A stretch of DNA of 64,000 bases from Solitalea canadensis DSM 3403 (GTDB taxonomy: Bacteria > Bacteroidota > Bacteroidia > Sphingobacteriales > Sphingobacteriaceae). Shown one piece after another: positions 28,224 through 50,588 of this stretch. Position 1 is the first letter of the stretch, and the number at the start of each line of letters is the position of its first letter. The stretch covers positions 930,001 through 994,000 of the forward strand of contig NC_017770.1 of assembly GCF_000242635.2 (NCBI RefSeq). The letters run 5' to 3'. The notes under the pieces are model-generated. The model was not told where the DNA came from, ran no database searches, and was given only the letters and a program-made list of their open reading frames with translations. The translations under genes were made by a program, and so were the position numbers.

Positions 28224-28232
28224 ATTTATTCA

Positions 28233-28317
28233 GATATGAGATTTGAGATATGAGATTTGAGAAGGAGACTTTAAGATTTGTATCCTACACCTGAAATCTC
28301 ACATCTCACATCTAAAC
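28233..28317. repeat. Word-type inverted repeat (GATATGA/GATTTGA) between iscU and iscA
   Basis: The left part (28233-28261) is a tandem run of the 7-mers GATATGA and GATTTGA, alternating twice. The right part (28291-28317) carries the inverse, CTGAAATCTCACATCTCACA. The best arms match 14 of 16 bp, with a ~30-nt loop. It occupies almost all of the iscU-iscA gap and would sit in the iscA leader. Confidence 0.65.
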
Positions 28318-38869: not shown

Positions 38870-39274
38870 ATGAATAAATTAAAATTGAAGGACCTTGTTT
38901 ACAAGGTTAATGGAGCTGCTATTGAGGTACACAAAGCTTTGGGTCCTGGTTTGCTGGAAAGTGTTTATCACAAATGCCTGATGCATGAGTTGCAATTAAG
39001 GGGTGTTGATTTTTATCCGGAAATGTCAATTCCGGTTAGATATAAAGACATTGAGATTAATACACAGCTTAAATGTGACTTGTTTATTGAGAATTGTTTG
39101 GTTGTAGAGTTAAAAGCTGTTGATGAAGTCCTTCCAATTCATCAAGCTCAGTTACTGTCTTATATGAAACTGTTAAAGGCTCCCATGGGACTTTTGATCA
39201 ATTTTAATTGTGTTAATGTTTTCAACGCGGGACAGAAAACCTATGTAAATGAATTCTATGAGGTCCTTTCTTAA
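38870..39274 (+). CDS. GxxExxY protein, PD-(D/E)XK nuclease-like fold
   Basis: A 134-residue protein of the GxxExxY (PDDEXK_3) family. The name motif is Gly27-Leu-Leu-Glu30-Ser-Val-Tyr33. A candidate nuclease core is Asp70, Glu80 and Lys82 (CDLFIENCLVVELKAV), followed by IHQAQLLSYMKLLK, in the usual PD-(D/E)XK order. Family members are predicted nucleases of unknown role. Its stop codon is followed after a few bases by the ten-unit palindromic array at 39275, which may or may not be related. Confidence 0.83.
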   Translation: MNKLKLKDLVYKVNGAAIEVHKALGPGLLESVYHKCLMHELQLRGVDFYPEMSIPVRYKDIEINTQLKCDLFIENCLVVELKAVDEVLPIHQAQLLSYMKLLKAPMGLLINFNCVNVFNAGQKTYVNEFYEVLS

Positions 39275-40088
39275 TAAACCATATAAGATATATAAGATCA
39301 TTTAAGAAAAAACTTATCTGTTCCTTATATGGTCTTATATGGTTCAGAAATAATCAACCATATAAGACATATAAGATCATTTAAGAAAAAAACTTCTCTG
39401 TTTCTTATATGCCTTATATGGTTCAGAAATAATCAACCATATAAGACATATAAGATCATTTAAGAAAAAAACTTCTCTGTTTCTTATATGCCTTACATGG
39501 TTCAGAAATAATCAGCCATATAAGACATATAAGATCATTTAAGAAAAAGCTTATCTGTTTCTTATATGCCTTATATGGTTCAGAAATAATCAACCATATA
39601 AGACATATAAGATCATTTAAGAAAAAACTTATCTGTTCCTTATATGGTCTTATATGGTTCAGAAATAATCAACCATATAAGAGATATAAGATCATTTAAG
39701 AAAAAAACTTCTCTGTTTCTTATATGCCTTATATGGTTCAGAAATAATCAACCATATAAGACATATAAGATCATTTAAGAAAAAAACTTCTCTGTTTCTT
39801 ATATGCCTTATATGGTTCAGAAATAATCAGCCATATAAGAGATATAAGATCATTTAAGAAAAAGCTTATCTGTTTCTTATATGCCTTACATGGTTCATAA
39901 ATAATCAACCATATAAGATATATAAGATCATTTAAGAAAAAGCTTATCTGTTTCTTATATGCCTTATATGGTTCATAAATAATCAGCCATATAAGAGATA
40001 TAAGATTATTTAAGAAAAAAACTTATCTGTTTCTTATATGCCTTATATGGTTCAGAAATCATAAGACGTGTAAAATGCCTTACATGGT
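39275..40088. repeat. Palindromic tandem array 1: ten units of ~79 bp
   Basis: Ten units start (at CCATATAAG) at 39279, 39358, 39437, 39516, 39594, 39673, 39752, 39831, 39909 and 39987; spacing is 78-79 bp. Each unit is a large hairpin. The arm CCATATAAGACATATAAG meets its inverse CTTATATGCCTTATATGG across a loop with ATCATTTAAG-A-run-CTTAT. The linker is TTCAGAAATAATC. The array fills the entire gap between the converging GxxExxY and phosphatase genes and ends in a partial unit (about 40065-40090) that overlaps the phosphatase stop. No spacer diversity is present, so this is not CRISPR. Confidence 0.95.
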
Positions 40089-40820
40089 TTACCTATTTCG
40101 GCCGTTTTCATTCGGATAGAGCGTTTGTACAATGTCACTCTGAAAAACCTCCTTAGAATCAATGTTCACAGCGGACAGTTTTCCAAGAAAAGCTGCGCCA
40201 GTATCGATATTCCAAACATTACAAGCCTGCATAGGTACGCCTACATCATAGTTTAAAGTTGGAGTATGGCCTATGTAAATTTCGTTGAACAACAGTAATC
40301 GTTTGGGATACAGTTTAGAATCTTTGGTAATACGTTTATCCATTGTCAGAGCCATTTCCCATAAGGTGCGATCCCAGGAAAAATTGCTTGAATATTGTTC
40401 CTTCTCTGGTCCGTGCATAGAAGAAAAGCCAGCGTGAATAAATAGTCTGTTTTGCTCATCTATAAAGTAATTTAACATTCTGCGAAAGAACTTCAGATGC
40501 CTTTCTTTTTCTTCAACCGGAAAAGTGATATAACTTTCAATCGTTGAGTCACCTCCATTAAAAAACCAGGTTTGATTGGGCACATTGCCGTTTAACCAGG
40601 ATTCACACCAAGCGTCGTGGTTGCCTTTAATAAACATGCATTCAAAAGATTCATCAAGTTTAATCAAATAATCAATTACACCTGATGATTCAGACCATCC
40701 ATCTACATAATCCCCTAAAAATATAAGCCTGTCGCCAACAACAGGGTTGATTTTGCTTATAAGTTGTTTCAAAGCTTTCAATGCTCCGTGAATATCTCCT
40801 ATGACAAATGTTCTGGGCAT
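40089..40820 (-). CDS. PPP-family metallophosphoesterase (serine/threonine phosphatase-like)
   Basis: A 243-residue phosphatase. The three PPP signatures are clear: FVIGDIHGAL (metal ligands Asp and His), FLGDYVDGWSESSGV and FIKGNHDAWCESWL. Later histidines lie in LFIHAGFSS and IYIGHTPTLNYD. This is the bacteriophage-lambda/PrpE-like class, which includes phosphatases for proteins and for dinucleotides. It is the last gene of the leftward ADP-ribose cluster, 103 bp after the ADP-ribosylglycohydrolase gene. A role in dephosphorylating ADP-ribose-1''-phosphate or proteins is possible but not shown by sequence. Confidence 0.88.
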   Translation of the reverse strand: MPRTFVIGDIHGALKALKQLISKINPVVGDRLIFLGDYVDGWSESSGVIDYLIKLDESFECMFIKGNHDAWCESWLNGNVPNQTWFFNGGDSTIESYITFPVEEKERHLKFFRRMLNYFIDEQNRLFIHAGFSSMHGPEKEQYSSNFSWDRTLWEMALTMDKRITKDSKLYPKRLLLFNEIYIGHTPTLNYDVGVPMQACNVWNIDTGAAFLGKLSAVNIDSKEVFQSDIVQTLYPNENGRNR

Positions 40821-49785: not shown

Positions 49786-50588
49786 ATTATTTAAACCATG
49801 TAAGACATATAAGATCATTTAAGAAAAACTTATATGTTCCTTATATGCCTTATATGGTTCAGAAATAATAAACCATGTAAGACATATAAGATCATTTAAG
49901 AAAGAAAACTTATATGTTCCTTATATGCCTTACATGGTTCAGAAATAATAAACCATGTAAGACATATAAGATCATTTAAGAAAGAAAACTTATATGTTCC
50001 TTATATGCCTTACATGGTTCAGAAATAATAAACCATGTAAGACATATAAGATCATTTAAGAAAGAAAACTTATATGTTCCTTATATGCCTTACATGGTTC
50101 AGAAATAATAAACCATGTAAGACATATAAGATCATTTAAGAAAGAAAACTTATATGTTCCTTATATGCCTTACATGGTTCAGAAATAATAAACCATATAA
50201 GACATATAAGATCATTTAAGAAAAACTTATATGTTCCTTATATGCCTTATATGGTTCAGAAATAATAAACCATATAAGACATATAAGATCATTTAAGAAA
50301 AACTTATATGTTCCTTATATGCCTTATATGGTTCAGAAATAATAAACCATGTAAGACATATAAGATCATTTAAGAAAGAAAACTTATATGTTCCTTATAT
50401 GCCTTATATGGTTCAGAAATAATAAACCATGTAAGACATATAAGATCATTTAAGAAAGAAAACTTATATGTTCCTTATATGCCTTACATGGTTCAGAAAT
50501 AATAACCATATAAGACATATAAGATCATTTAAGAAAAACTTATATGTTCCTTATATGCCTTATATGGTTCAGAAAATAACCGATAAGG
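49786..50588. repeat. Palindromic tandem array 2: ten units of 77-80 bp
   Basis: Units begin (at CCAT) at 49796, 49873, 49953, 50033, 50113, 50193, 50270, 50347, 50427 and 50506. Two classes occur. About 80-bp units have the left arm CCATGTAAG and a longer loop with AAGAAAGAAAACTT. About 77-bp units have mostly CCATATAAG and a shorter loop with AAGAAAAACTT. Units 2-5 and 9 match CCATGTAAG with CTTACATGG; units 6, 7 and 10 match CCATATAAG with CTTATATGG. The array fills the gap between the converging MBL and DUF4468 genes and has the same orientation as array 1. Confidence 0.95.

Follow-up and report, generated by a model that had tools for sequence, protein, structure and literature searches.

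The window, a stretch of 64,000 nucleotides of the Solitalea canadensis genome, raises the question of where a tandem array of giant hairpins lying between two convergent genes came from, and whether it serves its host. An earlier note, made from the bare sequence, had described the array and had offered as possible roles a two-way terminator, an mRNA 3'-end guard and a selfish repeat, among others, but it missed that the adjoining gene belongs to the GxxExxY family (PF13366, PDDEXK_3) and that gene and array are linked. We consider it probable that the array, here called array 1, consists of tandemly amplified gene-less (MITE-like) copies of a small GxxExxY mobile element, lying beside the gene that is probably their cognate.

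Array 1 and its relatives in the Solitalea canadensis genome

Array 1 (39275-40088) is placed between two protein genes, not in an rRNA gene, and fills the entire gap from the stop codon (39272-39274) of the 134-aa GxxExxY gene on the forward strand (38870-39274) to that of its host neighbour, a converging calcineurin-like phosphoesterase gene on the reverse strand (40089-40820; stop codon from 40089). TRF finds 10.0 copies of a 79-bp unit over 39272-40059 with 94% matches, which bears out the ten ~79-bp hairpins between convergent stop codons that had been described; the first CCATATAAG starts at 39279, and after unit 10 a degenerate eleventh half-unit, half a hairpin, runs to 40088. In the typical unit a left arm of three words, CCATATAAG-ACATATAAG-ATCATTTAAG, is followed by an A-rich loop and by the first two words inverted; the left arm of unit 2, for example, reads CCATATAAG ACATATAAG ATCATTTAAG at 39358-39385 on the forward strand, and its right arm at 39404-39423 reads AACCATATAAGGCATATAAG on the reverse strand. 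The earlier note had seen the words, the loop and the inverted words, but had missed the third left-arm word and a higher-order period of about four units (315 bp, by TRF); the units are near-identical as it stated, and the linker is exactly TTCAGAAATAATC in seven of nine cases and TTCATAAATAATC in two.

Folding, which had been proposed as a check, gives strong hairpins. A single unit folds as RNA at -24 kcal/mol, where its shuffles average -7.5 (z -6.7), and the entire array at -246 against -133 (20 shuffles; z -19.8). A second array of the same family, array 2 (49792-50575), occupies another convergent gap with ten units of 77-80 bp in which the third word is inverted too, not only the first two as in array 1, and one of its units folded as DNA also beats its shuffles (z -7.8). 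Elsewhere in the window, a 14-bp perfect repeat of 2.2 copies lies at 28232-28262.

A genome-wide count of arrays, likewise proposed earlier, was made with the 18-mer CCATATAAGACATATAAG, which at up to two mismatches is found in 110 places, its reversed pattern in only 3 (100 of the 110 were listed, those with no or one mismatch completely). Restricting the count to no more than one mismatch leaves 11 loci, nine of them multi-copy and two single-copy. The left arm is common to all 11, and the interiors mostly differ among loci while agreeing inside each; one interior is common to array 1, array 2 and an array at 1.33 Mb. Unit 14 of the 1.33-Mb array, ~362 kb away, shares 66 identical bp with the last unit of array 1, and units have therefore been exchanged or moved inside the genome. 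At another locus (L013:3187-3877) the array consists of six forward half-units and then six inverted ones, with an interior that differs, and each half has therefore expanded separately. An assembly artefact, which the earlier note had named as a way for its reading to fail, is unlikely, because the genome is a single contig and its 11 loci hold arrays or single hairpins of differing interiors; we therefore treat array 1 as a real feature.

The position of these loci favours one of the roles put forward earlier, that of a two-way transcription terminator or mRNA 3'-end guard selected in convergent gaps. Convergent gaps house eight of the 11 loci, whereas 98 of 606 gaps sampled from 864 kb are convergent (p 5e-5, with naive ORFs; one of the eight has a tRNA-Thr gene ahead of the array), and the hairpins are strong. 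Against this, a scan of 39200-40150 for intrinsic terminators found no site with a GC-rich stem and a T run, no U-run follows the stem of array 1, and an equal bias would arise if gaps at 3' ends tolerate insertions best. A word array at L012:2978-3442 begins no more than ~25 bp downstream of a tRNA-Thr gene.

A second possibility is that a Y1 (RAYT) transposase has mobilised the units as REP/BIME repeats. The units are palindromic and intergenic, the genome has two PF01797 genes, and the stretch around one of these (L200) holds one CATTTAAG and one CTTAAATG; but neither CATATAAG nor CTTATATG occurs in the ~3.3 kb of sequence that surround each of the two Y1 genes, and array 1, on inspection of its sequence, has the hairpin foot AACC instead of GTRG and AT-rich arms built of tandem words. 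We judge this origin highly improbable, in agreement with the earlier exclusion of REP/BIME of known form. The tested hallmarks of terminators and of REPs are thus both absent. Inspection likewise revealed nothing CRISPR-like in it, as had been stated before, and Rfam at gathering thresholds gave no match in the window. The phosphoesterase orthologs in three genomes of the same genus yielded no empty site for array 1.

The GxxExxY gene and its inverted word arms

The gene adjoining array 1 matches PF13366 in Pfam with an E-value of 1e-39 and is the sole full copy in the genome and the putative gene of a full element. A fragment of 32 residues of a second GxxExxY gene lies at 1105952-1106047 of the same genome with no CATATAAG words near and is perhaps a decayed copy. 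Residues D70, E80 and K82 are invariant in all 119 parsed GxxExxY sequences, and we take them to be the catalytic D...ExK residues of the PD-(D/E)XK superfamily. A phmmer search up to E 1 found no related solved structure, and the AlphaFold model is poor (pLDDT 41). Of 148 Bacteroidota genomes sampled, 75 carry the family, often more than once; relatives at E 1e-5 occur in 8 of 72,556 plasmid records and viral contigs gave zero confirmed close relatives of the window's gene. The portions available to us of the open-access literature under the names GxxExxY and PDDEXK_3 state no function for the protein, and among the open-access matches listed no title or opening of an abstract links GxxExxY to word repeats.

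The word itself is far more widespread than array 1. Its left arm, AACCATATAAG-ACATATAAG, often with the third word, is found exactly in many Bacteroidota: the 20-mer AACCATATAAGACATATAAG occurs in at least 120 stretches of genome contigs, and all 80 of those listed are Bacteroidota by NCBI rank, with Flavobacterium, Pedobacter, Runella, Cyclobacterium, Chitinophagaceae and Saprospiraceae among the hosts. The 80 listed loci hold 98 occurrences, 52 of which continue into the third word and 42 of which have an inverted arm within 240 bp, against 156 of 4000 control windows with the motif. Its spread is patchy, as three other genomes of the window's genus lack the 18-mer at up to one mismatch, and among 60 genomes searched at that setting it is found only in the window's own and in one other of the same class (G037). 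Among the 36 cases in which the upstream gene points its 3' end at the word, 16 have the word beginning no more than 21 bp past the stop codon (naive ORFs). The excess of convergent gaps, on which the terminator role leans, is modest in these loci (16 of 63 against 33 of 258, p 0.02, the 63 excluding 16 edge cases and 5 words within naive ORFs).

Of the 146 ORFs that flank the 20-mer, 115 were scanned with Pfam (the remaining 31 lie at contig ends or are very long), and each of the 177 families matched has two members at most. PF13366 is present twice, at L122 and L141, which exceeds expectation (p 0.0015, on a rough background estimate of 1.7 genes per 3,500), but 12 other, mostly large, families also reach 2 of 115, which counts against reading the word as the end of a GxxExxY element. 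A third candidate neighbour, at L095, was rejected on the sequence and ORF list, the gene there not being adjacent. In L122 (Pedobacter frigidisoli) the GxxExxY gene is bordered by forward words at one end and by inverted words at the other, and in L141 (P. sandarakinus) seven forward arm units precede the gene and inverted arms follow it; the proteins are 68% and 65% identical to that of the window, and both genes are flanked by CATATAAG arms. Across 392 Bacteroidota genomes, searched for word and protein at equal settings and taken as one genome set, the word pair is present in 13, namely in 8 of the 12 genomes with a GxxExxY protein at least 60% identical to the window's and in 5 of the 380 others. 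Inside one genus (g51), no significant association links the word to the close GxxExxY clade (7 of 11 against 5 of 14, p 0.24), which also speaks against the element reading.

More general evidence comes from loci chosen by protein alone from Bacteroidota genomes (the searches of 148 and 392), to which L122 and L141, chosen by word, were added. The gene could be parsed in 119 of these 122 loci (L324, L342 and L354 were dropped), and 91 of the 119 have matched inverted arms scoring above the 99th percentile of shuffled flanks (an inverted-repeat score of 13.5). Flanks swapped between loci match in 5.8% of cases, and of 264 small genes taken from the window's genome as controls, 2 score as high (Fisher test); these controls come from one genome, are unmatched in GC and include the window's own GxxExxY gene (13.5, and not one of the two above 13.5). 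The median arm length is 33 bp, and 69 of the 91 carry a tandem-word signature, compared with 17% of shuffled arms. The remainder count against the element reading: 28 of the 119 loci are under the threshold, 22 of the 91 arms lack the signature, and the window's own gene has no clear left arm, its score of 13.5 not exceeding the threshold and its word array lying only on the 3' side.

The words also differ from clade to clade. In the loci of the 11 proteins most similar to the window's own (L240-L250), the 5' flank carries forward and the 3' flank inverted CATNTAAG words, a pattern found in none of the next 18; these 11 come from one genus and are essentially one orthologous locus (nine of the other ten match the outer flanks of L240, with L244 outside that set), counted as one event in the co-phylogeny. 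Arms of the CATATAAG type flank GxxExxY genes in L122, L141, L359, L362 and others, and elsewhere the flavours are CACATAG, CACTAAG, CATTAAG, CACAGAG, CGCAAAG and CACAGATT. Past the nearest 11, falling protein similarity brings CACATAG, CACAAAAG, CACTAAG and CATTAAG, and then CACAGAG, CGCAAAG and CACAGATT. With 79 homologous-locus pairs left out, protein identity correlates with arm similarity (Mantel rho 0.24; none of 500 permutations as high). The correlation persists in comparisons across host families (rho 0.25; L122 and L141, with family names that matched no group code, were each set as a different family from the coded rows) and when permutation is confined to GC quartiles (0 of 400); the strictest subset gives a rho of 0.175, with 0.170 as the highest permuted value. 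Eight flavour labels, assigned by custom regular expressions, require 17 changes on a protein tree of 62 rows, one per locus (28 same-locus and 2 unlabelled rows dropped), against 35-44 in 300 shuffles, and still 17 against a shuffle minimum of 30 when the window's row and the two word-chosen rows are removed. The arms and the GxxExxY gene thus form one unit. Since they are physically linked and travel together, their co-phylogeny alone is no proof that the protein reads the word, though it leads us to infer that the protein may recognise it.

Full, gene-less and empty forms at one gap

The behaviour of such units is seen at one gap between two genes that we presume, from motifs recognised by eye, to be sufE and a DUF59 gene. 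It was compared in 30 of the 40 genomes of one genus that gave a match, and 27 were parsed, the dropped gaps being L384 (22 bp), L385 (63 bp, with a CATATAAG word) and L388 (71 bp). Five of the 27 hold a full CATATAAG-ended GxxExxY element in gaps of 585-718 bp; five hold a gene-less CATATAAG-type hairpin or a lone arm (one of them weak and set by hand); three hold a hairpin of another flavour; three are of other kinds; and 11 have no words (1-41 bp), a class that includes the wordless L386 (36 bp) and L387 (41 bp) beside nine gaps of 1-15 bp by eye. The states of L360, L361, L364 (a weak left arm only) and L367 were set by hand from the sequence, and L365, L368 and L376 were named by hand with their states unchanged. 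In L360, L361 and L367, hairpins of the CATTAAG or CACGAATT type occupy the gap where relatives hold CATATAAG elements.

The gene-less arm pairs of L371 and L373 share their site with full elements. Of the close relatives L359 and L360, whose DUF59 proteins are 99% identical, the first has a full element in the gap and the second a CATTAAG hairpin. The tree, with good support for only 1 of its 24 inner branches, requires at least four changes between occupied and empty and at least nine changes of state. Comparison of empty and occupied gaps by eye defined no target-site duplication. GxxExxY genes and matched inverted arms occur together, and within a genus one and the same site can be empty, hold the full element or hold a form without the gene; elsewhere gene-less forms also occur as tandem arrays.

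Gene-less hairpins here lie exactly where relatives hold full elements, and it is unlikely that hairpins at this gap have a conserved host role. The same gap bears on the terminator, since sufE and the DUF59 gene lie on one strand (as in L240), and hairpins equivalent to those of array 1 are present between the co-directional genes in some species and missing in close relatives. We therefore find a terminator or 3'-end guard quite improbable as the reason for array 1; such a role is unsupported, though terminator activity could be a local by-product, and no conserved host role of array 1 is evident. Among the roles proposed earlier, the selfish repeat fits best. The earlier statement that the array is not a MITE is probably wrong, as its units look like element ends without the gene, but the parent would encode a nuclease-family protein and no known transposase.

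A more serious alternative, which we nevertheless hold to be rather unlikely, is that word-ended elements are moved in trans by an unrelated enzyme, with GxxExxY as one passenger gene among several. Genes of the four-helix-bundle family PF05635, which encode no nuclease, also lie between inverted repeats, many of them word-built, at 24 of 34 loci (five of them in the window's genome) against 3.8% with swapped flanks; 5 of the 13 word-bearing genomes among the 392 searched lack the close GxxExxY clade; and most hairpin loci of the Solitalea canadensis genome have no adjoining GxxExxY gene. Small genes between inverted word arms may thus be a wider phenomenon, and the mover could act in trans. 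Against a shared mover, the class of word differs with the gene, the CCNNNNAG-type tandem signature being present in 69 of 91 GxxExxY arms and in 2 of 24 four-helix arms, the flavour tracks the GxxExxY phylogeny, and no alternative mover emerges among the neighbours (no family above 2 of 115, among the best 25 of the 177 families). In the window's own genome, five PF05635 genes (at 4921732, 460252, 780808, 312377 and 2329464) lie within inverted repeats whose words are of another, mostly heptamer-like type such as TAGTCCATAGTCCATGG; one of them is situated between what we take by eye to be N-carbamoylputrescine amidase-like and agmatine deiminase-like genes. As a source of array 1 these genes were rejected, their words being different.

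A proposed element and its closest known counterparts

We return to the GxxExxY element as the preferred source of array 1 and propose how it may work. A full element would comprise two inverted arms, each of two or three ~9-bp words, around one GxxExxY gene of the PD-(D/E)XK nuclease family, and in its CATATAAG form would fill a gap of ~0.6-0.7 kb. The nuclease may recognise and cut DNA at its own word, perhaps in an extruded hairpin, and repair of the break would then copy the element into gaps, often right past stop codons, where it is presumably tolerated best. Loss of the gene would leave arm-arm hairpins, which unequal recombination or exchange, or repair slippage, could expand into arrays. 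That the nuclease reads the word and drives the movement is our inference from the linkage and co-phylogeny described above. More tentatively, and as a possibility to which we give somewhat less than even weight, GxxExxY proteins may be the mobility nucleases of undescribed, phylum-wide selfish elements, in which each clade reads its own tandem word, cuts word hairpins and spreads full and gene-less forms without a known transposase. If so, many unexplained intergenic word repeats of the Bacteroidota would be the ends of GxxExxY elements, and a mobile element without a transposase of known type would become directly testable; and if GxxExxY clades read matched words, an unstudied family would gain a function together with ready predicted cognate sites.

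Several known systems share parts of this design. MITEs are gene-less inverted-repeat copies of a larger element and are unusual as tandem arrays; the gene-less copies described here likewise share terminal inverted repeats with a larger, gene-bearing element, but the gene between the arms encodes a PF13366 protein of a nuclease superfamily, and no transposase-encoding parent was found. PD-(D/E)XK homing endonuclease genes are selfish nucleases of the same superfamily; unlike them, GxxExxY, a putative nuclease, lies between matched word arms in intergenic gaps.

The intervening sequence of Coxiella 23S rRNA, as far as the part of the report available to us describes it, is likewise small and selfish, combining inverted repeats with a single small gene (S23p/23S_rRNA_IVP), upstream of which lie tandem GACAGAT heptamers (PMC4990558); unlike array 1, it resides within rRNA, encodes a four-helix-bundle protein, of the family to which the PF05635 genes above belong, and uses another type of word. 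The TAACTGA heptamer repeats of Beggiatoaceae, Cyanobacteria and Bacteroidetes resemble array 1 as short tandem intergenic words of patchy phylogenetic spread, with no evident mechanism of transfer (PMC4679880). In the part of that account accessible to us they are a single heptamer, mostly in direct orientation, upstream of start codons and with no linked gene, whereas the words of array 1 are ~9 bp long, stand in inverted arms and are tied to GxxExxY. REP/REPIN sequences with their REPtron (RAYT), in the portion of the source we could consult (PMC6006769), are again short palindromes in intergenic gaps with one linked gene; there, however, the gene is a Y1 transposase and the hairpins typically have a GTRG foot, whereas array 1 pairs word-built arms with a gene of the PD-(D/E)XK family.
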